From Akkermansia muciniphila (GTDB lineage Bacteria; Verrucomicrobiota; Verrucomicrobiia; Verrucomicrobiales; Akkermansiaceae): a stretch of DNA of 64,000 nucleotides. Every line of letters starts with the position of its first letter. Positions within the stretch are counted from its first letter, which is position 1. The translations under genes were made by a program, and so were the position numbers. Of this stretch, positions 4,854-64,000 are shown in pieces. The stretch is taken from positions 1-64,000 of the forward strand of contig CAMDAD010000012.1 of the NCBI GenBank assembly GCA_945888515.1, read 5' to 3'. The notes under the pieces were generated by a model. That model did not search any database. It was given only the letters and a program-made list of their open reading frames with translations, and was not told where the DNA came from.

Positions 4854-6833
4854 TTAGGCACCGACTTCGGGATCGAAGTCTTTGGGCGCGCGCACGATTT
4901 TTTCCACCGCGTGCTTCGTCACCATGTTGCCACCGCTGGAGCGGCCTTTGACGGCTACTTCGGCGAAGTGAAACGGACGACTGACATTACGCAGTCGGAG
5001 TTGCGGTTTCAAATGCACGATGAGCATCTGCGCCGCGCTGTCCACTTCGGTCTTGTGCACCGCAAAGTAGAGAATCCGCGTGCCGGCCTTGCCTTTGGTG
5101 AGATCGTATTCTTTGTCGCGCGTCACACCGCCGACTTGGAATCGCTTCGCATACACGGCGCCGTCCTTGCCATCACGATAGATGATCGAGAAAAACAGCG
5201 GATCGTCTTTGCGGAATACGGTGACGTGAATCGGCTTTTGACCGATGAAGCCTTTTTCAGCAATCTTCATGACTTTCATCTTGCCGTCCTGCGTAAAGGC
5301 GATGATGTCATCGATGGTCGAGCATTTCTCCACCGCCTCGTCTTTTTTCAGGCCATAACCTGCAAAGCCGTTTTTCCAATCGACATATAAGGTCTCGGTG
5401 GCCGCCACGACTTGCGTGCGGTCCACGCGATCAAAGGTGGCGATATCCGTGCGCCGCTCACGCCCAGTGCCGTATTTTTTCTTCAGCTCCTCATACCACT
5501 TGATGGTGTATTTGTTGAGCTGTTTGAGATTCTTTTCGGTCAGATCGATTTCCTTTTCCAGCCCGCGAATTTCCTCGTCGGCCTTGAAGGAATCGAACTT
5601 CGAGATGCGTTTGATTTTGATCTCGGTCAACCGCACGATGTCATCCTGCGTCACCTCACGCTTGAGTAATTTCTTGAACGGCGTGAGTCCCTTATCGATC
5701 GCTGCGAGCACCGCTTCCCATGTCTCACACTCCTCGATATCTCGATAGATGCGGTTCTCGATAAAGATTTTCTCCAACGAGCTGAAATGCCACTTTTCCG
5801 CGAGCTCGCCGAGCTTGATCTGGAGCTCCAGACCCAGCAGGTCTTTGGTTTGCTGGGTATTGCGGCGAAGGATTTCCGAGACTCCGAGAAATTGCGGTTT
5901 GCCATCGGCAATGACGCAGGCGTTCGGTGAGATCGATAGTTCGCAATCGGTGAACGCATACAACGCATCGCGCGTGGTTTCGGCATCGGCTCCGGCAGGG
6001 AGATGGACGAGGATATCCACGTGCTCCGCGGTGTTGTCTTCGATTTTCTGAATCTTAATTTTCCCTTTGTCCGCCGCTGCCACGATGCTCTCCATGAGAT
6101 TGCCGGTGGTCGTGCCGAAGGGAATTTCCGTAATGCGCAGGAGGCCTTTTTTCTCGGTCGAAATGCGAGCTCTCACCCGCAGCCTACCGCCGCGCAGACC
6201 ATCGCGATATTCGCTGGCATCCATGATGCCTGCGGTGGGGAAATCCGGCACGAGCGTGAATGTCTCATGGCGCAGGATGGCGATGCTGGCATCGATGAGT
6301 TCGTTGAAATTGTGCGGCAGGACCTTGCACGCTAAGCCCACCGCGATCCCCTCCACTCCCTGTGCGAGTAGGAGCGGAAATTTCATCGGCAAGGTAATCG
6401 GCTCCTTGTTCCGCCCGTCATAGCTCGGCGTCCAGTCGGTGGTCTTGGGATTGAACATCACCTCCAGCGCGAACTTGGTCAGGCGGGCCTCGATGTAACG
6501 CGAGGCAGCGGCGCTGTCGCCCGTGAGGATATTTCCCCAGTTTCCCTGGGTATCGATGAGAAGATCTTTTTGCCCGAGCTGCACCATCGCATCGCCGATC
6601 GAGGCATCGCCATGCGGGTGGTATTTCATCGTATTGCCGACGATATTCGCAACCTTGTTATACCGACCGTCATCGAGTTCCTTAGTCGAGTGCATGATGC
6701 GCCGCTGCACCGGCTTGAGACCATCGTTCAGGTGCGGCACCGCACGCTCCAGAATCACGTAGCTGGCGTAATCGAGAAAGTAGTCAGAATACATCGCCCC
6801 CAGAGAGGTCGGGAGGTCATCTTCGGTAGTCAT
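4854..6833 (-). CDS. parC: DNA topoisomerase IV subunit A-like (type IIA)
   Basis: This 659-residue DNA-breaking subunit of a type IIA topoisomerase would separate daughter chromosomes with a ParE partner, which is not in the window. The breakage-reunion domain shows LKPVQRRIMHS, YHPHGD and the active-site Arg-Tyr pair in AAASRYIEARL (R112, Y113). A coiled-coil segment lies near residues 400 to 450. The C-terminal part is short, with no GyrA-box (QRRGGKG), so ParC fits better than GyrA. The sequence resembles the Bacteroidetes type (YFLDYASYVILERAVPHL, KWHFSSLEKIFIENRIY). It is convergent with the DUF3127 gene, and two tRNA genes lie upstream on the same strand. Confidence 0.9.
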   Translation of the reverse strand: MTTEDDLPTSLGAMYSDYFLDYASYVILERAVPHLNDGLKPVQRRIMHSTKELDDGRYNKVANIVGNTMKYHPHGDASIGDAMVQLGQKDLLIDTQGNWGNILTGDSAAASRYIEARLTKFALEVMFNPKTTDWTPSYDGRNKEPITLPMKFPLLLAQGVEGIAVGLACKVLPHNFNELIDASIAILRHETFTLVPDFPTAGIMDASEYRDGLRGGRLRVRARISTEKKGLLRITEIPFGTTTGNLMESIVAAADKGKIKIQKIEDNTAEHVDILVHLPAGADAETTRDALYAFTDCELSISPNACVIADGKPQFLGVSEILRRNTQQTKDLLGLELQIKLGELAEKWHFSSLEKIFIENRIYRDIEECETWEAVLAAIDKGLTPFKKLLKREVTQDDIVRLTEIKIKRISKFDSFKADEEIRGLEKEIDLTEKNLKQLNKYTIKWYEELKKKYGTGRERRTDIATFDRVDRTQVVAATETLYVDWKNGFAGYGLKKDEAVEKCSTIDDIIAFTQDGKMKVMKIAEKGFIGQKPIHVTVFRKDDPLFFSIIYRDGKDGAVYAKRFQVGGVTRDKEYDLTKGKAGTRILYFAVHKTEVDSAAQMLIVHLKPQLRLRNVSRPFHFAEVAVKGRSSGGNMVTKHAVEKIVRAPKDFDPEVGA

Positions 6834-6902
6834 CAGAGAAATGATTAAGCATTCTTAACCAGCTACGCAAGCCCTTTTCTTACGACTGCGCCTGCCCCAA
6901 AA

Positions 6903-6934
6903 GGAAAAAGCCTCGATCCCGTCAAGGATCAAGG
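6903..6934 (-). terminator. Terminator downstream of tRNA-Asn
   Basis: Read on the minus strand, GCCTTGATCC pairs with GGATCGAGGC around a six-base loop and is followed by a T-rich run. It lies just after the tRNA-Asn gene and before the topoisomerase gene. Confidence 0.75.
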
Positions 6935-6940
6935 CCTTTA

Positions 6941-7016
6941 TTGGCTCCGGTTCTAGGATTCGAACCTAGGACCTAATGGTTAACAGCCATCCGCTCTACC
7001 GCTGAGCTAAACCGGA
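6941..7016 (-). tRNA. tRNA-Asn (GTT)
   Basis: A 76-base cloverleaf with acceptor stem TCCGGTT/AACCGGA, D-loop AGCGGTAGA, anticodon loop CTGTTAA (anticodon GTT at 6982-6984) and T-arm GGTTCGAATCC. The 3' CCA is encoded (6941-6943). Confidence 0.97.
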
Positions 7017-7112
7017 GTTACAATGTGCTTTACAGTTTCCTGCGAAGCGGGGCGAAGTTGCTGATTTTTTCACCGCAAGGCAAGAAAATTTTGCAACAAA
7101 AGTTAAGTTAAG

Positions 7113-7189
7113 TGGTCGGGGCGGCCAGATTCGAACTGACGACTTCCTGCTCCCAAAGCAGGCGCTCTACCAGGCTGAGCTACGCCCCG
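7113..7189 (-). tRNA. tRNA-Pro (TGG)
   Basis: A 77-base cloverleaf with acceptor stem CGGGGCG/CGCCCCG, D-arm GCTCAGCCTGGTAGAGC, anticodon loop TTTGGGA (anticodon TGG at 7153-7155) and T-arm with GTTCGAATC. CCA is encoded. It precedes tRNA-Asn on the same strand by about 97 bases. Confidence 0.97.
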
Positions 7190-7269
7190 AACGGGGCGGC
7201 GACTGTCATCGAATCTTCATCGGATGGCAAGACAATTTTTATGCAGGAGGAAAAATAAATGCAAATGTC

Positions 7270-7881
7270 TCATCGCACCACGCTCGAAACGTTGTTTCCC
7301 TGAGAACGCCCCAGGGATTTTTCTAACGATTCCTCTAGCAATTTCATGTTTCCGCTGCATTCTGGCTCGTAGCTTTCGGTGCGGGTGGGACTGTAGTCAT
7401 CGGGCTGTTCCATGATGTGGCGGGCGAACGCTAGCTCCTGGCGCATGGCTGCGATGAGTATACGGCTTTGCCGCAGTAGCTGCGTGTCTTGAGAGCGATA
7501 CTCACCCGCGTGGATCGCCACGTGGAGCGAGCCGGAGAGCTTGCGCAGTTTTTGATCCAATTGCTCCATGGCATGGAGCCAAATCGGCAAGAGTCTCATG
7601 AACCGATCCGCGCGAAGGCGGGTCTCTCGCAGCTCAAACAGACTCCTGCGATCCGGAATGGGATCGTAGAGCTCCGCCTGGCGCAGCACGATGAATTGTC
7701 TCACGCATTTCTGCACCATAACAAATTCTGGAATGGCATCGTGGGCCTGCCTTGCCGCGTTCCAGTCGAGCCAGATGGTTTCTTTGATCCCACGTGCGGT
7801 ATGCGACAAACGCTGTGCACTGCGATCACTGCCCATGGCAAGAAAGGCAACGATGATCAGGATGACAGGCCGCTTCCACAC
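7270..7881 (-). CDS. Hypothetical membrane-anchored or secreted protein
   Basis: A protein of about 203 residues that I do not recognise. From the GTG at 7881 it begins MWKRPVILIIVAFLAMGSD, a signal peptide or membrane anchor. The rest is charged and looks largely alpha-helical (LRETRLRADRFMRLL, MEQLDQKLRKLSG), ending in a polar tail. A longer reading from the GTG at 7902 is possible, but those codons lie inside the terminator hairpin of the upstream oxidoreductase gene, so I prefer 7881. With a transcription stop immediately in front, expression must come from read-through or from a promoter I cannot identify. The start is uncertain. Confidence 0.6.
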   Translation of the reverse strand: MWKRPVILIIVAFLAMGSDRSAQRLSHTARGIKETIWLDWNAARQAHDAIPEFVMVQKCVRQFIVLRQAELYDPIPDRRSLFELRETRLRADRFMRLLPIWLHAMEQLDQKLRKLSGSLHVAIHAGEYRSQDTQLLRQSRILIAAMRQELAFARHIMEQPDDYSPTRTESYEPECSGNMKLLEESLEKSLGRSQGNNVSSVVR

Positions 7882-7911
7882 AAAAGCGCCAACGTTTGAC
7901 ACGTTGGCGCT
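7882..7911 (-). terminator. Terminator after oxidoreductase gene
   Basis: On the minus strand AGCGCCAACG pairs perfectly with CGTTGGCGCT around a seven-base loop and is followed by TTTT. It lies about 40 bases after the oxidoreductase stop codon and overlaps the longest reading of the next gene. Confidence 0.75.
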
Positions 7912-7950
7912 CTTAGAAAAAAAGTATGCGGGCCGCTTACCAGCGTAACG

Positions 7951-9036
7951 TTAGGCCACGGTGACTGGCTTGCCGGACTTCGCGGAGGCGTAGATGGCAT
8001 CGATTACTTGCATCAGACGCAGCGCTTGCTCAAGGGTGTTGAGCGGCGCTTCTTTGCCGGTGATGGCGTGGATGAAATTCGCGGCACTGGCACTGCGGCC
8101 CATGTCTTCACAGGCGGGCGTGACGATGCTGCGATTGACGCTGTTGCCGTTTTCTTGGACGTAGAGTTCGCAGGTATCGATGGCCGTCTCATCAAGACCA
8201 TCGATGCCGAACAAACGCTCGACTTTGCCACCGGCTTTGGTGCCTTGGAATACGACGCTCACTTCCTCGCGCTTGATCATTTCCGCCCACGAGACTTGCA
8301 GGCTCAGCACCTGACCAGTCTTGAACGTCACAAAGCCATGCGCGGCATTTTCCACGTCGGTCACACCACCCACGCGGTCGGGAATACCCCAGGGGCCTTT
8401 GAAGCTCTTGTCCTGGATAAAATCGTTAAACGTCTGGCCAAGCACATGTTTCGGCTCGGGATAGCCCATGAAATACATCGCCAGATCGACCATGTGCAGC
8501 AAGTCGATCAGTGGACCACCACCGGACAGATCCTTGGTCGTGAACCAACCGCCAAAGCCCGGGATGCCGGTACGACGGATCCATTTCGCTTGAGCGGAAT
8601 TGATCATGCCGACGGTGCCGTTCTTGATGTAGTTCATCATCGCCTGTGACTCGGGACGCGCGCGGTTGTTGAAATTGAACAGCACTTTCTTTTTCGCAGC
8701 TTTGGCAGCGGCGATGATCTCCTTGACCTCCTTCGCATTGAGTGCGGGCGGTTTTTCCGAGAATACGTGTTTGCCCGCCTTGAGGCACTGGATCGCGAGC
8801 GGTTTGTGGAATTTGTTCGGCACGATGATGCTCACCGCGTCGAGCTTCTTGCACTCTTTCAGCATCGCATCCACTGACTCATACGAGTTCGGGATGCCCC
8901 ACTTCTCCGCTGCTTTCGCTGCGGCGCCGGGCGCGGCATCCGCGACGGCGACGATTTCTGCTCCTGCCTGGCGAAAGCCTGCCGCATGATACTGCAACAT
9001 GCCGCCGGCACCGATGACTCCTACTTTGATGGCCAT
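7951..9036 (-). CDS. Gfo/Idh/MocA family NAD(P)-dependent oxidoreductase
   Basis: A 361-residue dehydrogenase that should oxidise or reduce a sugar or cyclitol. It starts at MAIKVGVIGAGGMLQ, where the Rossmann nucleotide-binding motif GxGxxG begins; a longer in-frame reading upstream adds only non-conserved residues. Conserved family features include the SEKPPALNAKEV loop (EKP motif) near residue 95 and the C-terminal alpha/beta domain with GGPLIDLLHMVDL, where the Asp and His residues usually act on the substrate. No signal peptide is seen. It follows the sugar isomerase gene by 19 bases and the two are almost certainly co-transcribed, a pairing common in cyclitol and 3-keto-sugar catabolism. 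Substrate unknown. Confidence 0.88.
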   Translation of the reverse strand: MAIKVGVIGAGGMLQYHAAGFRQAGAEIVAVADAAPGAAAKAAEKWGIPNSYESVDAMLKECKKLDAVSIIVPNKFHKPLAIQCLKAGKHVFSEKPPALNAKEVKEIIAAAKAAKKKVLFNFNNRARPESQAMMNYIKNGTVGMINSAQAKWIRRTGIPGFGGWFTTKDLSGGGPLIDLLHMVDLAMYFMGYPEPKHVLGQTFNDFIQDKSFKGPWGIPDRVGGVTDVENAAHGFVTFKTGQVLSLQVSWAEMIKREEVSVVFQGTKAGGKVERLFGIDGLDETAIDTCELYVQENGNSVNRSIVTPACEDMGRSASAANFIHAITGKEAPLNTLEQALRLMQVIDAIYASAKSGKPVTVA

Positions 9037-39063: not shown

Positions 39064-39072
39064 CAAAAAAAT

Positions 39073-39169
39073 GCTGTCAGGGAATCCGTGGCAAGCCCGG
39101 ACAAACTACCGTTGCTTCGATTAAGACCTGGCGGGTTTCGCCTGCCGAACCTCCACAGCCCCTGACAGC
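39073..39169 (-). ncRNA. ffs: Signal recognition particle RNA, small bacterial (4.5S) type
   Basis: About 97 bases folding into one long hairpin. The ends pair as GCTGTCAGGG with CCCTGACAGC. The conserved SRP core is at the apex: CCAGGTC, a TTAATC loop, GAAGCAACGG, flanked by CGAAACCCGC, the expected symmetric and asymmetric internal loops where Ffh binds. On the minus strand a run of seven Ts follows at once (39064-39071), acting as terminator. Usual SRP RNA carries a GGAA or URRC-type loop; here the apex reads CTTAATCG, which deserves folding. Confidence 0.85.
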
Positions 39170-53440: not shown

Positions 53441-55234
53441 TCATTGCGCTATCACGACGGGTGCATCGATCCATTTACCGTGTTCACGGATCAAATCGAT
53501 GAGTCGTTCCACAGCTTCTTCCTCAGGAATATTGAATTTCACCGCCTTCTTGCCGACGTATAGATTGATTTTATTGGGTGCGCCACCGACGTAACCGAAA
53601 TCAGCGTCTGCCATTTCACCAGGGCCGTTCACGATGCAGCCCATTACCGCGATGCGAACCCCTTTGAGGTGTCCGGTAGCCGCACGGATTTTTTGTGTGG
53701 TGGACTGCAAATTGAACAAAGTGCGACCACAACTCGGGCAAGCAACGTAGTCCGTCTTGAAAATCCTCACTCCCGCCGCCTGCAGTATGTTATAGGAAAG
53801 TCGGAAACTCTGCCCCGGAGCATTTTCTCCTTGGATCAATACGGCGTCTCCGATGCCATCGCAGAGCAGCGATCCGACATTGCGCGCCGCTACCAGCAGT
53901 GCCTCCTGAAAATCCACCTCACCCACTGCGGGCACTAATGTATCCTTGAGCAAAATGGGATGTCGCGAATCGATACGAGCCGCTAAGAGACGGAAGGCAT
54001 GAATGACTTCCATATCGATGCCGTCGGCGACTGTCACCAGCACAGGATCTGCAGCTGCTTGGAGAGACTCCACCGCTGCCGCATCGCGCGGATCGATCGC
54101 CCACACGCCGGATTTTTCCATGATGATCTCCGGCTTGAAATCCCCCAAGGCAGAAAACTTGTGCGCCACCGCATTCCACTTCTCCTGCGTGGTCACGACA
54201 CGCACAGTCTCGCCGCCGCCCACGGTCACCCCCATCACTTCAATTTTTGAGCTACTACGTTTATCGTAGCTAAACGGATCATACGATAGTTTTTCCGCGG
54301 CTTCTGTATGTCCTGCGGCAGCGCCGAAGCTCCCATCTAGGAATGGCTTGACCAAGGCGCGCGCGACTGGGATTTCATAAACGGCATCCTCCGTGAGTGA
54401 TACCCGCACGGTATCGCCGATACCATCCGCCAGCAGTGAACCCATGCCGATCGCGCTTTTGATGCGGCCATCCTCGCCATCTCCCGCCTCGGTCACGCCC
54501 AGGTGAATCGGGTAATTCCAATCGGAACCTTCTTTTTCCAAACGCGACACCAGCAATCGGTAGGCCTCGATCATCACCTTCGGGTTAGAGGCCTTCATCG
54601 AGAACACAAAATTATGGTAGTCCATCTCGCGAGCGATACGGGCAAACTCGAACGCGCTCTCCACCATACCCAACGGCGTATCGCCGTAGCGGTTCATGAT
54701 GCGATCAGACAAAGAGCCGTGATTCGTGCCGATGCGCATCGCTCGCTTTTTCTCCTTGCATAGATCGACCAAGGGCGCGAATTCCTCGCGAATACGCTGC
54801 AGTTCCTCTTCGTATTGCTCGTCCGTATATTCACGAATCTCGAATTTTTTCTTGTCGGCGTAGTTGCCAGGATTGACGCGGATTTTTTCCACCCACTTCG
54901 CCGCCTCAAACGCGGCATCGGGCTTGAAATGAATATCCGCCACCAGCGGCACGATGCAACCCGCCGCACGCACCTCACGCGCGATATTTTCCAAGTTCGC
55001 CGCATACACTTTAGTCTGCGCCGTGATTCGCACAATTTCACATCCTGCCTGCGCTAGTTGCAATACCTCGGAGACACAAGCGGGGGTGTCACGAGTGTCC
55101 GACGTAATCATCGACTGCACACGAATCGGATGACCTCCACCAATTCCCACATGTCCGACCATCACCTCGCGGCAGTCACGGCGTGCGTAATGAAGAAGAT
55201 CAGGGCAATAGCGCAGGAGCTCGGAGGTGTTCAT
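53441..55234 (-). CDS. ispG: 4-hydroxy-3-methylbut-2-en-1-yl diphosphate synthase, long form
   Basis: A 597-residue iron-sulfur enzyme of the MEP isoprenoid pathway (MEcPP to HMBPP). The start MNTSELLRYCPDLLHYARRD fits the family; an 80-residue in-frame extension upstream is spurious. It is the long, three-domain form seen in Chlamydiae, Bacteroidetes, Verrucomicrobia and plants, with an insert between the TIM barrel (GGHPIRVQSMITSDTRDT, ADIHFKPDAAFEA, GTNHGSLSDRIMNRYGDTP) and the Fe-S domain. The [4Fe-4S] cysteines are in ACPSCGRTLFNLQ and VMGCIVNGPGEM. It is divergent from the subtilase gene and tail-to-tail with the GT9 gene. Confidence 0.96.
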   Translation of the reverse strand: MNTSELLRYCPDLLHYARRDCREVMVGHVGIGGGHPIRVQSMITSDTRDTPACVSEVLQLAQAGCEIVRITAQTKVYAANLENIAREVRAAGCIVPLVADIHFKPDAAFEAAKWVEKIRVNPGNYADKKKFEIREYTDEQYEEELQRIREEFAPLVDLCKEKKRAMRIGTNHGSLSDRIMNRYGDTPLGMVESAFEFARIAREMDYHNFVFSMKASNPKVMIEAYRLLVSRLEKEGSDWNYPIHLGVTEAGDGEDGRIKSAIGMGSLLADGIGDTVRVSLTEDAVYEIPVARALVKPFLDGSFGAAAGHTEAAEKLSYDPFSYDKRSSSKIEVMGVTVGGGETVRVVTTQEKWNAVAHKFSALGDFKPEIIMEKSGVWAIDPRDAAAVESLQAAADPVLVTVADGIDMEVIHAFRLLAARIDSRHPILLKDTLVPAVGEVDFQEALLVAARNVGSLLCDGIGDAVLIQGENAPGQSFRLSYNILQAAGVRIFKTDYVACPSCGRTLFNLQSTTQKIRAATGHLKGVRIAVMGCIVNGPGEMADADFGYVGGAPNKINLYVGKKAVKFNIPEEEAVERLIDLIREHGKWIDAPVVIAQ

Positions 55235-55502
55235 TCGCAGAAAAACTAGCACACCCGCCCCCAACAGCGCAATCTTTTGACTTGGATATTTGCGCCAGAG
55301 GACCAAGAGAGGAGAGCGCCTGCGGGAGCCTTCGAGGAGGAGGAACCTCTTGCACTTCCCACAAAACGTTATCGTCCGATGGAGAGCCAATATACCGAAG
55401 AAATGACCACATACAGAGCAACCGCTGCTCACCACTCGCGATGCAAAAAATATTCTTGATTGGGAAAGATTCATGGTATCGTGCGCAAGAACCCAAGCGC
55501 AA

Positions 55503-57263
55503 ATGACCCATCAACCACTCCAACTAGCGAAATTCCCTCGATTCAGTTGTCTCGTGGGATGTAGTTACCTGTGCTTGTCACCCGCAAGTGCGATCGTGAG
55601 CAGTTATGGTGGCACTAACATTTTCAATGGAGTCTATATCAACGATGTCATAGGTGCGAATGCCTTTTACCAACAGGGATTCGGCGGTCAACGGGTAGTG
55701 ATTGCCAACATCGAGGCAGGAACGGTTTGGGGAGAACATGAATCCTTGCAAGGTCGGGTTACACGCACGTTGTCGGATCCCACGATTACCGGAACGCAAT
55801 TAGGCCAAGTCGATTGGCATGCTACGTTTGTAGGACATGCGCTGGCGGGCTCAGGAATGTTTACCTATCAGGATGGCATTGCGCCGCTATCGCAACTCTG
55901 GTCAGGCGCGATCGCCACCTCATGGTCGGGCGCACCATTAGAGGAATATGTTGGATCATTCAGCATCACTGATGCGAGCTTTCTCTATCCGTATCGCACA
56001 GCCTTGGTCACGGGAGTGAATGGAACACGAGCGGATGTCATCAATAGCAGTTGGGGGTTTGGTGATCCCACTGGCACGGCTGCGGAAACGATTGCGATCG
56101 ATGCGATGTTGCGGAGCAGCGGTGCGATTGGCGTTTTTTCTGCTGGAAATTCAGGGCCCTTGGGTAACACGGTGGGAGGACCCGGAAGCGGATACAACGG
56201 GATCACAGTCGGCGCGTTGACAAACACCGAACTGCGCCCGACCTACGATACGGTTGCCGATTTTTCGAGCCGCGGCTGGAGCGATGCCTACAACCCGCAA
56301 ACCAATGTGGTGGTGACCAATGCGCGTGCTACGATCGATATCGTAGCACCCGGCGACAACCTCACGATGGCGTTTTATGGAGGTGTGAGCGGAGGGCATG
56401 TCTCCGGATCAGACCCTACTGCGGGAAGTGGTGAATTTTATATCCCCAACATGGGGGGAACGAGTTTCTCGGCTCCGATCGTCGCAGGCGCTGCGGCATT
56501 GATGGTAGATGCAGGCAAAGCATACGGTATCGCGGAAATGACCCATCCCTTGGTGGTGAAAGCCGCACTCATGGCTGGGGCCACGCCTACGCAAGGATGG
56601 GATAATGGTCAACATTTCGATGGCGCTGTGATACGCACATCACAGGCGCTGGACTTGGCAGCGGGTGCAGGAGCTTTGAATCTGGAAAAGGCGCACTCGA
56701 TTTATGTGGGCAATTCGACTTTGGTCGCGGGGTTGGGTTATTTCACAGATGGATTAAACACCATGGGAGTCGCTGGCACGACAGGTGCCTCGAACCTCGC
56801 CGCGCGCGGATGGGACTTGGGAGCGATTCAAAATGGTGCGAATATTTACACTCTGGCAGGTGTGATGGCCGCAGGAAGCGAGTTTTCCGCCGTATTAACC
56901 TGGTATGCGGCACGTGGATTCGATGTTTCTCTTTCCAGTGTGCAGGACACAGCCTTGTCCAACTTATCGCTAGAATTGTGGTGCCTCGATCAGAACCTCG
57001 GGCAGCGTATGGTGGGACGCTCTGAGTCCCCTTGGGGCACAAACGAACATTTGCGATTCACGCTTGCTGAAACAGGGCAATACCAACTTCGCGTTTTGTG
57101 GGAAGGACAGAACTATCAAACGGCTTCCAATCCCGATTTACTGACCGAATATGGCCTGGCGTGGTCGGTCTCGGCCATACCCGAACCATCACTTGCCACG
57201 ATTTTCAGCGTGTCACTCATGATTTTTTTCATGAAGCGCAATCGTCGCAGCGGTTGTCCGTGA
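55503..57263 (+). CDS. Secreted subtilisin-like serine protease with PEP-CTERM sorting signal
   Basis: A 586-residue S8-family protease. It starts with a signal-like N-terminus (MTHQPLQLAKFPRFSCLVG, ending PASA). The catalytic Ser is S321 in GGTSFSAPIVAGAAAL, the His is H106 in VDWHATFVGHALAG, and N216 in SAGNSG supplies the oxyanion hole. At the Asp position the text is IANIEAG, so E71 stands where most family members have Asp. The C-terminal 200 residues are beta-rich. The protein ends with a PEP-CTERM tail: PEPSLATIFSVSLMIFFM then KRNRRSG, a membrane helix and basic end recognised by an exosortase/archaeosortase-like enzyme. It should be anchored or exported at the cell surface. It is an isolated gene. 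Confidence 0.85.
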   Translation: MTHQPLQLAKFPRFSCLVGCSYLCLSPASAIVSSYGGTNIFNGVYINDVIGANAFYQQGFGGQRVVIANIEAGTVWGEHESLQGRVTRTLSDPTITGTQLGQVDWHATFVGHALAGSGMFTYQDGIAPLSQLWSGAIATSWSGAPLEEYVGSFSITDASFLYPYRTALVTGVNGTRADVINSSWGFGDPTGTAAETIAIDAMLRSSGAIGVFSAGNSGPLGNTVGGPGSGYNGITVGALTNTELRPTYDTVADFSSRGWSDAYNPQTNVVVTNARATIDIVAPGDNLTMAFYGGVSGGHVSGSDPTAGSGEFYIPNMGGTSFSAPIVAGAAALMVDAGKAYGIAEMTHPLVVKAALMAGATPTQGWDNGQHFDGAVIRTSQALDLAAGAGALNLEKAHSIYVGNSTLVAGLGYFTDGLNTMGVAGTTGASNLAARGWDLGAIQNGANIYTLAGVMAAGSEFSAVLTWYAARGFDVSLSSVQDTALSNLSLELWCLDQNLGQRMVGRSESPWGTNEHLRFTLAETGQYQLRVLWEGQNYQTASNPDLLTEYGLAWSVSAIPEPSLATIFSVSLMIFFMKRNRRSGCP

Positions 57264-57390: not shown

Positions 57391-60063
57391 ATGACTCTCA
57401 AACCCGTATTCGCTCTATTATTGCTGCTCTCGGCGGTTGGTCGCTGCAATGATCCGATACCTGCCGCGCAAGAGCCTAAGATCGAATACATCCGCGTGAC
57501 TGAGGACGATGAGATCGCACGCCTGCAAACCTCTACCGCCACGCTGGAAAAAAACGGTGTGCGCGTCGATTTGATTGGTGCCATTCATATCGCGGATCGC
57601 GCCTACTATGAAACGCTCAACAAGACTTTTACGGAATACGACAGCTTGCTCTTTGAAATGGTTGGGGGAGATAAAATCGCTGCGAGTGAAAAACCCATAG
57701 AGAGCGAGACGGAGGAGGAAAAAAACTCACTCTCGGGACTGCGTGATGTCTACGCCATGGTGGCGAAATTTCTCGGTCTTAGTGGCCAAGCGGAAGTCAT
57801 CAACTACCAAGCGACAAACTTTGTCCATGCTGATCTGAGTATGGCGGAATTCACCGAAAAACAAAAACAACGCAAGGAGTCTTTGCTGGGATTAGCGCTC
57901 AAAGCGGGAACCGAACCAGCAAGCGCCAAGGTAAAGCAACCCGACGCGACGCGTCTGATGGCCGCGATGCTCATGGGCAATAGCAACATGATGAAGATGG
58001 AGTTGATCCACACGCTGGGCCAAGGAGACGATCAAATCTCGATGTTCGCGGGAGAGACAGTGATCGTCACCGACCGCAATGCGAAGTGCCTCGAAGTGCT
58101 GGATTCAGAGATCGCGAAAGGCAGAAAAAAACTCGGTGTGTTTTACGGTTCAGCTCATTTTCCCGACATGGAAAAAACACTGCTCAGCCGTGGTTGGCAG
58201 CGCACTGGCGAGGTCTGGCTGACGGCGTGGGAAGTACCGAAAATCGCTAAAAAGGATCCGCTATTTCCTTTTGGAAAAAAGTTCGCCAACCTCGATGCCC
58301 CCGCCACTGGCGAGTGGTGGAAACGCCCGAAAGCCAAGGGCAAGCAGGCTTGGTGGAATGAAGTGATTCTCGATGTGCCACGTGATCAAACTGTGGCGTT
58401 CGCCCTTTATACCATCGATCGCGGCACACTCAAAATGACTGGTCAGCTAGTACCATTGCTGCCAGAAGAATCACGTGAGGCAAGACTGGAAATTCAGCAA
58501 GCCGACGGCACATGGAAAGAAATCGCACGCAGCAAGGTCATAGAGCCAGGGTGGTCCGCCCACTTCCGTGTGGAGTCGTGGCACTCCACCAAGACCGTGG
58601 CCTATCGTGTGCGCCATGGCGAAAAATCGATGTTCGAGGGAAGCATCCGCAAGGACCCTGTCGATAAGTCTACCATCGTAGTCGCCTCGCTATCCTGCAA
58701 CTCGAATCAAAACCGCGGCGCACGCTCCGATATGATCGCAAACCTGCGCCAGCAAGATCCCGATCTGCTGTTTTTCGCAGGGGATCAAAGTTACGATCAC
58801 GAACAACACACCGCCGCCTGGTTGCTGTGGGGCAAGCAGTTCCGCGAGATCATCAAGGATAGACCTACCGTCACGATTCCCGATGATCACGACATCGGCC
58901 AAGGGAATTTCTGGGGCCAGGGCGGCATCGTCGCCAAAGCAGCCGCTGGGCACGATGGCGGGTATTTTTTTCCAGCTTCGTATGTGAAAATGGTCGAGCG
59001 GTGTCAAACCTGGCACTTGCCTGATGCCTACGATCCCACTCCCATCGCGCAGGGAATCGGCGTGTATTACACCAACCTGCGCGTGGGTGGCATCGACTTC
59101 GCGATCATCGAGGACCGCAAATTCAAGAGCGGCCCCTCAGGCAAGATCCCACAAATGGGACCACGTCCCGATCACATCAACGATCCATCCTACGATCGTA
59201 AGTCCGTCGATCTGCCGGGCCTCGAACTGTTAGGAAAACGCCAAATCGATTTCCTGCGTCAATGGAGCAGTGACTGGCGAGGCGCACAAATGAAGTGCGT
59301 GCTCTCGCAAACAGCGTTCTGCGGTGCGGTGCATTTGCACGGCAGCAAAAACAACCGACTACTGGCGGATCTCGATAGCAATGCCTGGCCTCAGAACGGA
59401 CGCAATGCCGCGCTGGAAGAACTGAGACGCTGCCGCGCGGTTCACCTGTGCGGAGATCAACACCTCTCCGTAGTGGTGCAGCATGGTATCCAATCACATC
59501 GGGATGGTCCGTATGGTTTTACGAGTCCTGCGATTTACAATAACTACTACGGTCGTTGGTGGAGTCCACTCCCAGAGGTGGCGGGAGCCAATGCGCCGCA
59601 GGGCAATCCTCTTCCCTGGGTCGGCGATTATACAGACGGGCTCGGCAATCCCATCACCATGCACGCCTACGCCAATCCAAGCACGCACGGCGGAGCCACG
59701 GGACAGGATAACCAGCGCGCCGATGGTTACGGGCTCGTGCATTTTGACAAAAAAGCCAGCACCATCACCTTCGAAGCCTGGCCCTATGAGGGTCGTATCA
59801 GCGAGGGCCTAAAACCCTACGCTGGTTGGCCGATCACGATCAGCATGACAGACAATGACGGCCGCAAACCCGTAAAACAACTTCCCGTGCCGCAGGCCAT
59901 ACGCGACATGAAAGAACCCGTGATATCCCTTGTCGATGAAACCACGGGCATTCCAGTCTATACCCAACGTTTTCTCAAAGTCCCCGAAACTTTACCCATC
60001 TATCGAGAAGGAACATACTCCCTTCGCTTCGGCAAAGATCAGGCGACAACAAAGGCGCCATGA
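57391..60063 (+). CDS. TraB/TIKI-like domain fused to PhoD-like metallophosphatase
   Basis: An 890-residue secreted or periplasmic protein joining two enzyme domains. After a signal peptide (MTLKPVFALLLLLSAVG) residues 35 to about 285 resemble the TraB/PrgY/TIKI (GumN) family: GAIH (63-66), E89 in LLFEMVGG and a second GxxH, GSAH (253-256), the His/Glu set proposed to bind metal. Residues 308 to 425 form an Ig-like lead-in typical of the PhoD group (EVILDVPRDQTVAFALYTID). From about 428 the metallophosphatase domain shows SLSCNSNQNRG, FFAGDQSYDHEQH (D465), IPDDHDIGQGN (498-501) and CGDQH (D689, H691). The two halves are usually separate proteins, to my knowledge. A decayed IS element starts within its last codons. 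Confidence 0.82.
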   Translation: MTLKPVFALLLLLSAVGRCNDPIPAAQEPKIEYIRVTEDDEIARLQTSTATLEKNGVRVDLIGAIHIADRAYYETLNKTFTEYDSLLFEMVGGDKIAASEKPIESETEEEKNSLSGLRDVYAMVAKFLGLSGQAEVINYQATNFVHADLSMAEFTEKQKQRKESLLGLALKAGTEPASAKVKQPDATRLMAAMLMGNSNMMKMELIHTLGQGDDQISMFAGETVIVTDRNAKCLEVLDSEIAKGRKKLGVFYGSAHFPDMEKTLLSRGWQRTGEVWLTAWEVPKIAKKDPLFPFGKKFANLDAPATGEWWKRPKAKGKQAWWNEVILDVPRDQTVAFALYTIDRGTLKMTGQLVPLLPEESREARLEIQQADGTWKEIARSKVIEPGWSAHFRVESWHSTKTVAYRVRHGEKSMFEGSIRKDPVDKSTIVVASLSCNSNQNRGARSDMIANLRQQDPDLLFFAGDQSYDHEQHTAAWLLWGKQFREIIKDRPTVTIPDDHDIGQGNFWGQGGIVAKAAAGHDGGYFFPASYVKMVERCQTWHLPDAYDPTPIAQGIGVYYTNLRVGGIDFAIIEDRKFKSGPSGKIPQMGPRPDHINDPSYDRKSVDLPGLELLGKRQIDFLRQWSSDWRGAQMKCVLSQTAFCGAVHLHGSKNNRLLADLDSNAWPQNGRNAALEELRRCRAVHLCGDQHLSVVVQHGIQSHRDGPYGFTSPAIYNNYYGRWWSPLPEVAGANAPQGNPLPWVGDYTDGLGNPITMHAYANPSTHGGATGQDNQRADGYGLVHFDKKASTITFEAWPYEGRISEGLKPYAGWPITISMTDNDGRKPVKQLPVPQAIRDMKEPVISLVDETTGIPVYTQRFLKVPETLPIYREGTYSLRFGKDQATTKAP

Positions 60064-60672: not shown

Positions 60673-61884
60673 ATGGTTGGGTTGATTGGCATTCTTACGT
60701 TTCTGGGCATTGCCTGGCTGTGCTGTGATCAAAAGAAAGCGATTCGCTGGAAAACGATTGCGATTGCACTGGGATTGCAGGTAAGCATTGGTGCACTGGT
60801 GTTTGGTTATCCGCGTGGGAGAGCAGCGCTTCAATGGGCCAGCGATCGTGTCACCGATGCCATTGGCGCGGGAAAATCAGGCGTCGATTTTTTATTCGGA
60901 CCACTCACACAAAAAGACAACTCCGTCGGTTTCATCTTCGCCCTCCAAGTATTGCCGATGATCATTTTTTTCACCTCGCTGATCGCAGTGCTTTATCACA
61001 TGGGCGTGATGCAGTGGGTCATCCGCTTGATCGGCGGTGGTCTGCGTTATTTGTTAGGCACTAGTAGGGCGGAATCGCTCTCCGCGGCAGCGAATATTTT
61101 TGTCGGTCAAACCGAGGCGCCTCTTGTCGTCAGACCCTACATAACGCGCATGACTTCCTCGGAACTTTTCGCGGTGATGGTCGGCGGACTAGCCAGTGTG
61201 GCGGGATCTGTACTGGCAGGTTATGCGGCCATGGGTATCGAGATGAAATACCTGCTAGCCGCCTCATTCATGGCCGCTCCCGGCGGCTTGCTGTTTGCCA
61301 AATTAATCAAACCTGAAACGGAAAAACCGCAGGAAAACTTACTCGCGTTTAGCGAGGACGAAGATCACCCTGCCAATCTACTCGATGCCGCCGCACTGGG
61401 TGCCGCAACAGGTCTCAAACTCGCGCTTAACGTCGGCGCGATGCTGCTGGCCTTCATCGGCCTGATCACCCTGATCAACATGTTGTTAGGGTCTCTCGGA
61501 GGATTGTTTCAGTATCCGAAACTGAGTTTGCAGTCGATGCTCGGTTGGTTCTTCGCACCCGTGGCTTGGCTGACTGGCATCGCCCCCGATGAAATGATGA
61601 AAGGGGGCAGTCTGATCGGACAGAAATTGATACTCAATGAATTTGTGGCATTTAGCGAGCTCGCGAAGTGGCAGAACGTTGTCAGCGAAAAAACACGATC
61701 GATTTGTTCGGTAGCACTGTGTGGGTTTGCGAATCTCTCTTCCATTGCGATCCTGCTCGGCGGCCTTGGCAGCATGGCACCAACCCGCCGCGCGGAAATC
61801 GCCCGCCTTGGTCTGCGCGCGGTACTGGCAGGCACGCTCTCCAATCTCACCAGCGCGGCGATTGTCGGATTGTTTCTCCGCTAG
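60673..61884 (+). CDS. Concentrative nucleoside transporter (CNT/NupC family)
   Basis: A 403-residue inner-membrane cation-coupled importer of nucleosides. Family motifs are [20 protein letters not shown] (in part [15 protein letters not shown]), [14 protein letters not shown], the nucleoside- and cation-binding stretch, [20 protein letters not shown] and [10 protein letters not shown], with a late [11 protein letters not shown]. About ten helices are expected. Length is normal. Its promoter lies at the edge of the ISAs1 remnant, so it may have escaped or gained regulation from that insertion. deoB, elsewhere in the window, would act on the imported nucleosides after phosphorolysis. Confidence 0.92.
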
Positions 61885-61900
61885 TCTTGATGCACTAGCG

Positions 61901-62419
61901 TCATCCCTGATCCAACCATTTCATCACCGCCTTCTCCGCCTGCTCTAATCTCGTAGCGCCTTGACCGGAAATGACATGATAATCCCTACCCGTGGCTTGG
62001 ACGGTCGCAAGATGTTTTTGATACAATTCTTCCCTTCCCTCGCGCGCCTCGCGCAGCGGATCGAATTCCCAAGGCAAATCGGGCAGGCAAATCAGATAGA
62101 CATGATCGCACTCGGCAACTGCCGCCTCACTAAGCCAAGACTCACAACGCCCAAATGCCACATCACACCAGATGAGGAAATTTTGCAGATCGGTATCGTA
62201 GATAGCGATCGGAGCTGTCGCAGCTACTTTATCCTGTTGATAGGCCAGATGCCCTCGAGCGATCTCATGTACGATAGTCTCGTCATAGTGCGGACCGTGT
62301 TTTTCCAGATAAATGCGCGCATATTCAAGTGCATACGGCAAGCGAAAGCGCGCCGCCAAGTCTCTCGTTAGCGTCGTCTTCCCAGAAGACTCCGGACCAG
62401 TGAGCACAATTCTTTTCAT
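61901..62419 (-). CDS. NadR-like P-loop kinase (probable ribosylnicotinamide kinase)
   Basis: A 172-residue P-loop ATPase with RIVLTGPESSGKTTLTRDLA as Walker A and a middle IYDTDLQNFLIWCDVAFGRC, followed by YLICLPDLPWEFDPLREARE. This is the kinase part of NadR, without the nucleotidyltransferase or repressor domains, and should phosphorylate nicotinamide riboside to NMN. The gene overlaps the pnuC-like gene by four bases, and in most bacteria this pairing means uptake is driven by trapping the nucleoside as phosphate. A thiamine-kinase role is an alternative, since some PnuC relatives carry thiamine. Confidence 0.85.
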   Translation of the reverse strand: MKRIVLTGPESSGKTTLTRDLAARFRLPYALEYARIYLEKHGPHYDETIVHEIARGHLAYQQDKVAATAPIAIYDTDLQNFLIWCDVAFGRCESWLSEAAVAECDHVYLICLPDLPWEFDPLREAREGREELYQKHLATVQATGRDYHVISGQGATRLEQAEKAVMKWLDQG

Positions 62420-63030
62420 GCCATTACCTCCTTCTCAGCGCGATGCCATGACCACCAACCGTAGAAGCCTAAGATCAGGAAAAATCCATACTGCACCGCA
62501 TAAATCACGGAGCCTTGTAGAAGATAAATCTGAATACCTAACACATTCACGATCGCCCAGCAGACCCAATTTTCCATGCGCTTTTTCGCCTGGAGTAATT
62601 GCGCGAAGTAGCTCAACACCGTAGTGGTCGCATCGCGCCAAAGCAAAGCTGGCGATGTCATCCAAGTCAGATGTTGCGAAAAAAACTTTACACCATTTCC
62701 CCATAACAGCACGGCTAGGACCAATCCAAAAAGTAGAATCACCTGCTGGCGTCGTGCTAACCAGGTCGGACGGAACATTTCCTCCACAGAACCATGCTGA
62801 AGCCATACCATCCAACAATACATTTGTAACGGAATATACGATACATAAAGAATCCCATCGGATACTAAGTGAAAACGATTAAACGCCAGCCACGCCGAAA
62901 TCATGGCCCACAGGATTCCCAACGGCCAACCGAGAATGTTTTGTCGCGCGATCAGCACTACACTCGACACCGCCAATCCCGTGCCGAGATATTCGGGTGC
63001 CTGACCGGCGAGAAATTCCTGCAGATCCAT
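62416..63030 (-). CDS. pnuC: PnuC-family vitamin transporter (nicotinamide riboside or thiamine)
   Basis: A 204-residue inner-membrane carrier with about seven helices. Conserved text: NILGWPLGILWAMISAWLAF, LVSDGILYVSYIPLQMYCWM (in part SDGILYVSYIPLQMYCWMVW), KKRMENWVCWAIVNVLGIQI and GSVIYAVQYGFFLILGFYGW then WWSWHR, the PnuC aromatic pattern. It catalyses facilitated diffusion, with trapping by the overlapping NadR-like kinase. It lies 12 bases downstream of the TonB receptor gene, so receptor, carrier and kinase make one operon. Substrate by context is nicotinamide riboside, less likely thiamine. Confidence 0.9.
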   Translation of the reverse strand: MDLQEFLAGQAPEYLGTGLAVSSVVLIARQNILGWPLGILWAMISAWLAFNRFHLVSDGILYVSYIPLQMYCWMVWLQHGSVEEMFRPTWLARRQQVILLFGLVLAVLLWGNGVKFFSQHLTWMTSPALLWRDATTTVLSYFAQLLQAKKRMENWVCWAIVNVLGIQIYLLQGSVIYAVQYGFFLILGFYGWWSWHRAEKEVMA

Positions 63031-63042
63031 GAATTTGATGCG

Positions 63043-64000
63043 TTAGAAATCGCGTCGAATCGTAATGCCAAACTGCTGCGGTTGTGCCAGCGATTCGTAA
63101 CGGCGGGCCTCGTAGTCGATAGCGGGATCATTACCGAAAAAGAAGACACGCTGCGCATAATCCTCGTTCAACAAATTACGCACCCAAAGACTCACCGTCC
63201 ACTCATCTTTGGTGTAGCCGATACTGGCATTCACGTTAAAGAATCCATCACGTTTTTCATTGTGATCGTTGGATTCATAAAATTCACTTCGCCCGGTAAG
63301 ATCCAGCGTGCTGAAAAATCCGCTTTCATGCTGATAGCGACCACCGAGCGACCATGTCTGCGCGGGAGTGGCGGCCAATTCACGACCACCGCCCGTTCCA
63401 CCTTTGGTCAGGTCATACGCATCGATCGATGATGTCATCAGACCAAGGCTGCTGTAGAGCGAGAGTTGATCATTCACCTGCAAGCCCGACTCGATTTCCA
63501 AACCAGAAACGTAGGCATCACCCGCATTTTCCTCAGCAAAACTGAATTCCCCACCCACACCGTCGGAATAGCGCACCTGGGTATTTTCGCGCTGCAGATA
63601 AAATCCAGTGAGTGCCGATGTAAGACGACCATCCAGCCAGTTGCCTCGCACGCCCGCTTCGTAATTCCAAAGTCCCTCGGTTTCAAAAGTCAGCGGATCT
63701 TTGGCAGGATCGATTTCCCGAGCATCCAGGTTCAGACCGCCCGCCTTGTAACCGCGTGCAATCGAGGCGAAACCAAGCAAACGTTCATTGATGTCGTGCT
63801 CGTAGGTCAATTTCCCACCCAGCATGGTATCGGAAAAATCAGGAGAAAACGAGTCTCCATTACGCGGGTTCAAACTATCCGCCGATGTGTCCACATGTTC
63901 TAGTCGCAGCCCGAGAATCAGACGATCACGTTTTGTCAAATCATGCCCAGCTTGCCCGAAGATCGCATAGTTTTCCGAGGTGAAATCGGTATCCAGACGA
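63043..64000 (-). CDS. TonB-dependent outer-membrane receptor, partial (C-terminal)
   Basis: The C-terminal 300-odd residues of a TonB-dependent receptor; the gene continues past the right edge (TDFTSENYAIFGQAGHDL lies in frame up to the end). Barrel strands are typical: LILGLRLEHVD, LLGFASIARGYKAGGLNLDA, WNYEAGVRGNWLDGRLTSAL, FFNVNASIGYTKDEWTVSLW then VRNLLNEDYAQR, and the chain ends in Phe (ITIRRDF), as outer-membrane barrels do. It should bring a vitamin-type substrate into the periplasm for the PnuC carrier 12 bases downstream. The plug and TonB box are outside the window. Confidence 0.92.
   Translation of the reverse strand, partial: RLDTDFTSENYAIFGQAGHDLTKRDRLILGLRLEHVDTSADSLNPRNGDSFSPDFSDTMLGGKLTYEHDINERLLGFASIARGYKAGGLNLDAREIDPAKDPLTFETEGLWNYEAGVRGNWLDGRLTSALTGFYLQRENTQVRYSDGVGGEFSFAEENAGDAYVSGLEIESGLQVNDQLSLYSSLGLMTSSIDAYDLTKGGTGGGRELAATPAQTWSLGGRYQHESGFFSTLDLTGRSEFYESNDHNEKRDGFFNVNASIGYTKDEWTVSLWVRNLLNEDYAQRVFFFGNDPAIDYEARRYESLAQPQQFGITIRRDF

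Follow-up and report, generated by a model that had tools for sequence, protein, structure and literature searches.

The locus raises the question of whether a TraB/PrgY/TIKI-like domain and a PhoD-like metallophosphatase are truly joined in one protein, how such a protein arose and how it would work. A single frame of 890 codons had been predicted in the window, which is the whole stretch of 64,000 nucleotides analysed here. The coordinates and the strand of this prediction were exact and the translation was uninterrupted (Table 1). Of the 10 species in the genus, 4 carry the full-length fusion: G000 (the window genome), G042 (90% identity), G023 (77%) and G033 (77%). Three of these four were also present in the independent genome_contigs collection, as L031, L032 and L033, in MAGs named Verrucomicrobiae or Akkermansia. 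The four fused proteins align over their entire length, the joint included.

Table 1. Features of the fused gene and of two neighbouring genes in the window
Feature	Positions	Strand	Basis
ispG (gcpE), divergent neighbour	53441..55474	-	identity from its sequence; kept at stand-alone TraB loci
Whole fused gene	57391..60063	+	890 aa and stop; uninterrupted translation; full-length orthologues L031, L032, L033
Probable Sec-type signal peptide, residues 1-28	57391..57474	+	basic start, then hydrophobic run, by eye
TraB/PrgY/TIKI-like domain, residues 29-285	57475..58245	+	PF01963 score and invariant columns
Joint, residues 286-328	58246..58374	+	set against the C-terminal ends of stand-alone TraB and the N-terminal ends of PhoD proteins
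Ig/FnIII-like beta lead-in of the PhoD/PAP fold, residues 329-421	58375..58653	+	model strands 335-419
PhoD-like metallophosphatase core, residues 425-822	58663..59856	+	Foldseek, VIA-align to 2yeq and PAPs; conserved columns
C-terminal beta module, long subtype, residues 823-890	59857..60060	+	homologue alignment ends
nupC-type nucleoside transporter, downstream	60673..61884	+	TIGR00804, 465.7 bits; synteny

Selection on the fused gene was analysed with the window and L031, the pair with unsaturated synonymous change. The dN/dS ratio was about 0.09 for the TraB half, 0.05 for the Ig-like part and 0.06 for the PhoD core; for the joint it was 0.04, where the segment is short and its dS of 1.45 is itself near saturation. 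In the signal region the ratio was 0.4, with a dN that is high relative to the rest of the gene. Purifying selection acts on both halves as well as on the joint. Since four species carry the fused frame and its sequence is conserved across the joint, the frame is well beyond chance. The window genome was assembled into multiple contigs, and a misassembly, a frameshift or a stop-codon error might have merged two adjacent genes, but the same joined frame occurs in four separate assemblies at 76-90% identity, and the joint remains in frame while synonymous changes are saturating; such an artefact is extremely improbable and was rejected, and for practical purposes this also rules out an overlooked stop codon or frameshift.

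The identity of the two halves was analysed separately, and with the whole 890-aa chain both Pfam families scored just below their cut-offs (TraB_PrgY_gumN 24.1 bits, PhoD 26.6 bits). The N-terminal half alone matched PF01963 (TraB_PrgY_gumN) with 28.6-29.3 bits against a cut-off of 26.8, and 13 of 14 relatives of this half matched the family. In the window, the match is confined to the C-terminal portion of the profile, which marks this half as a divergent subfamily. The motifs of the TraB group that had been claimed for this half were found as two GxxH motifs (G63-A-I-H66 and G253-S-A-H256) and a glutamate (E89). Their G, H and E residues are invariant in 14 homologues, as are H146xD148 and R229-N230; the alignment begins at residue 29 and the residue numbers were converted from it. 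The profile match over the cut-off, the paired GxxH and the conserved Glu are what the half has in common with the TraB/PrgY/gumN (TIKI) family. An exported, stand-alone form of about 300 aa is present in most sampled genomes of the order, whereas in the fused chain the C-terminal tail is swapped for a full PhoD-like protein. A TIKI-type fold of this half is suggested by the Pfam match and the motifs; the structure model made from four sequences had a mean pLDDT of 45. To our knowledge, no function has been assigned to the TraB/TIKI-like protein in this order, and we know of no substrate of this subfamily. TIKI enzymes are reported to have a 2His/2Glu catalytic set, and one member to be metal-independent (PMC6254334), so a metal dependence of the TraB half should not be assumed.

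The C-terminal part alone matched PF09423 (PhoD) with 28.3 bits (cut-off 27), and the family was matched by all 18 PhoD-half relatives in the alignment at E <= 1e-3. The top Foldseek match of the PhoD-half model was the solved B. subtilis PhoD (2yeq; E 4.8e-18), and VIA-align of model residues 318-822 gave Z scores of 24.0 to the kidney bean PAP and 20.8 to 2yeq. The model was confident over most of residues 311-500 and 779-890 and mixed in between. As modelled, the C-terminal half has a PAP-like beta-sandwich fold with an Ig-like lead-in, which aligns with the N-terminal domain of PAP/PhoD from model residue 318/328 (VIA-align). The original prediction of a complete metallophosphatase with its Ig lead-in at residues 428-890 was right about the presence of PhoD, but the Ig-like part lies at about 329-421, ahead of residue 428. 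Likewise, the core extends only over about 425-822, and residues from about 823 to 890 are an extra small beta module, found only in those homologues that align to about 885, whereas the others end near 817-819.

The motif residues of the PhoD core, all in columns that are invariant or almost so, are C436, D465, Y468, D498-D499-H500-D501, N506, D575-R576 and D689-Q-H691. Among them, C436, D465, Y468, D498, D499, D689 and H691 are candidate ligands of Fe and the first Ca, assigned by motif rather than by residue-level structural superposition or superposed coordinates. The fused protein and 2yeq are alike in the fold and in the SC, GDxxY, DDH, DR and GDxH motifs, with Cys, Asp, Tyr and His as candidate Fe ligands and Asp residues as candidate ligands of the first Ca (ligands from PMC4223295). 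They differ in that identity over the fold is about 12-14%, with no sequence-level match to the solved protein, and in that the fused chain has the additional C-terminal beta module and the TraB fusion. In B. subtilis PhoD, activity is reported to be abolished by substitutions at Cys180, Asp265, Asn271, Asn272 and Asp436 (PMC4223295). At the place of the second-Ca Asn pair (N271/N272) the fused protein has Q504-G505-N506, an arrangement common to the subfamily in which N506 is invariant; the stretch reads DDHDIGQGN, compared with the DDHxxxNN spacing implied by the numbering in PMC4223295. Since the spacing of the pair is not identical, the metal set may differ from that of B. subtilis PhoD.

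PhoD-like proteins of 850-1600 aa from Verrucomicrobiota, Planctomycetota and Bacteroidota belong to the same subfamily and have an extra module before the Ig-like lead-in. In four long PhoD relatives (L065 at 6295-9018, L066, L064 and L063) the N-terminal extensions comprise about 240-750 aa. No TraB match was observed in these four extensions and no Pfam family scored above its cut-off; by eye, the extension of L065 is LamG/DUF1080-like. An apparent second N-terminal fusion in L006 (912 aa) was rejected as an over-extended start. In an Opitutaceae MAG (L034, 3632-7630), a tandem pair of PhoD-like genes is followed by a sulfatase gene.

The origin of the fusion can be read from the locus, the trees and the joint. 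In the unfused congeners G051, G059, G010 and G067, this position is occupied by a stand-alone TraB gene that is divergent from ispG; further downstream in G059, nupC follows as it does in the window. The fused gene of L032 lies outside the ispG/nupC neighbourhood and the fusion is still kept. All fused TraB halves fall into a single clade within the genus (97/97). The fused PhoD halves also form one clade (100/100), which has a long stem and is apart from the PhoD genes that stand alone in this genus (G051, G080 and G059); its sister group is unsure, the Opitutaceae copies being weakly supported (91/75). At the joint, the last strand of TraB (WLTAWEVPK) passes into DPLFPFGKKFANLDAPATGEWWK, a match to the beginning of stand-alone PhoD proteins once their signal peptide is removed, e.g. 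QLPFGKGHPELDSLAAGEWWK in L005. The model confidence is low at residues 276-297. The fusion arose once, inside one Akkermansiaceae genus. The resident TraB gene beside ispG in the congeners, the single clades and the match at the joint point to a non-local, signal-less PhoD gene that was joined behind TraB. This phosphoesterase gene came from elsewhere, minus its signal peptide, and was placed in frame after the resident TraB/TIKI-like gene, which lost its short C-terminal tail.

Other genes were noted in the window. An S8 subtilase (PF00082) with a PEP-CTERM-like C-terminus (PEPS, a hydrophobic run and KRNRR) lies at 55473-57263 between ispG and the fused gene; a counterpart is present in G042, and none is at this place in G033. 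At 61901-63030 a NadR-like kinase overlaps a PnuC nicotinamide riboside transporter, and the adjacent TonB-receptor-like frame (63043-63999) likely belongs with them to a nicotinamide riboside uptake set. The bacterial small SRP RNA (RF00169) is at 39072-39167 on the minus strand. Promoter and terminator scans gave results no better than shuffles.

The TraB half was found in 181 of the 240 genomes of the order, nearly always in a frame of about 300-400 codons, and the stand-alone gene is usually single-copy in this sample. Among the matches listed, no TraB-PhoD chain was observed beyond the four fused species in 145 genomes from the family and the full set of 10 from the genus, and none outside the genus in 240 genomes of the order and 338 of the phylum, searched with the TraB half, or in 335 genomes of the class, searched with the PhoD half. 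Searches with the whole protein listed no such chain in 294 Planctomycetota and 296 Bacteroidota genomes. The genome samples overlap and each search queried one given half or the whole protein. Judged from these matches, the case for absence outside the genus is strong within the family and reasonable in the wider samples. That close relatives of each half occur as separate proteins, as had been expected, was confirmed in the samples from family to phylum and in Planctomycetota and Bacteroidota. No TraB relative was found in viral contigs.

Several long frames were considered as further fusions. The long TraB frames of G024 (L070), G214 (L069), G181 (L073) and G178 (L074) were rejected as apparent read-through from upstream, outside the gene. 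L071, L072 and L075 were rejected as independent fusions; their architectures have TraB appended to other modules, none with PhoD, and L075 consists of TraB and a long C-terminal region. In L072 (1627-3522) one predicted exported protein has tandem TraB-like domains, of which the first resembles the window half and the second is a canonical PF01963 domain (174 bits). In L071 (2022-3776) TraB is preceded by an N-terminal region of about 300 aa that had no Pfam match and is beta-sandwich-like by eye.

For the whole protein, NCBIfam, PADLOC and a direct PDB sequence comparison gave no match, and the literature searched contained no paper mentioning both TraB and PhoD. The TraB-PhoD pairing appears undescribed in the sources searched, and both families were already known. 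To have called it the strongest candidate for an undescribed architecture was fair as far as the architecture is concerned, but the fusion is restricted to one lineage and combines two known families; it is not a new kind of system.

We consider it probable, at roughly 0.7, that the gene is a genuine fusion of single origin whose product is an exported chain with two active sites, acting as co-localised and largely independent enzymes. The fused product would be expressed from the promoter of the TraB gene and exported by its signal peptide. Since the joint corresponds to the mature N-terminus of PhoD, a PhoD protein started internally would be without export. The stand-alone PhoD relatives L005 and L007 have SRRxL-type twin-arginine starts, whereas the fused form has none, so its PhoD half may have to take up metals outside the cytoplasm. 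Two putative active sites, a TIKI-fold His/Glu hydrolase and a PAP-like phosphoesterase, would be linked by a short, flexible tether within one extracytoplasmic compartment. The protein would most likely work by co-export and co-localisation of two largely independent enzymes; a consecutive reaction on one substrate would be possible but is unsupported.

Such a reaction, in which the TIKI-like half and then the PhoD half act on one substrate (a glycopeptide or polysaccharide bearing phosphate, for instance) and the fusion provides channelling, agrees with the intact motif sets, the purifying selection and the single chain. The neighbourhood of stand-alone PhoD relatives also hints at decorated-polysaccharide substrates for the PhoD half, since a sulfatase gene adjoins them in 8 of 22 loci (L005, L012, L024, L034, L037, L041, L044 and L047). 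With 55 sulfatases in G000 and at least 76 in several relatives, a chance of 4-12% per locus was assumed, which gives P of about 1e-6 to 3e-3 for loci that are not an unbiased sample. The adjacency exceeds the expectation from sulfatase density and hints at a lead on the PhoD-half substrate. The fused gene has no sulfatase neighbour within about 53-64 kb of the window. Against a shared substrate, the separate TraB and PhoD genes showed no linkage in the genomes tested: they are located at 1.04 and 2.98 Mb in the single-contig genome G097, 1.9 Mb apart, and at 2.17 and 4.38 Mb in G768, 2.2 Mb apart. There are also genomes with one family but no close relative of the other: G010 and G067 have TraB, and G614, G615 and G616 have PhoD. 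This makes the same-substrate idea weak, and the TraB subfamily has no known substrate; the two-step reaction proposed in the original prediction was not supported, and we regard channelling as unlikely. A purpose-built extracellular bifunctional enzyme whose TIKI-type hydrolase and PhoD phosphoesterase carry out consecutive steps on a compound substrate is quite unlikely.

By analogy with other PhoD relatives, whose N-terminal modules may act in this way, one half could instead be non-catalytic and recruit, anchor or gate the PhoD half. Many long PhoD relatives of about 850-1600 aa (among them L065, L066, L064 and L063) have different N-terminal extensions at the same position, which makes an N-terminal accessory module a recurring theme. 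However, the TraB half has lost none of its expected catalytic positions and purifying selection acts on it, and this role is very doubtful. A gating of the phosphatase by the N-terminal fold, as had been suggested, found no support, since the separate genes are unlinked in the genomes tested and occur independently.

In the preferred reading of two co-exported, largely independent enzymes, an exported enzyme would have been gained by fusion to the promoter and signal peptide of a resident gene, and the states before and after the fusion are both kept in one genus. The fusion to a well-understood phosphoesterase gives a testable hint about where the TraB/TIKI-like protein acts, namely outside the cytoplasm, and perhaps about its substrate. 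If the consecutive-step reading were true, it would for the first time connect the bacterial TraB/TIKI family, which is widespread but functionally obscure, with a substrate.
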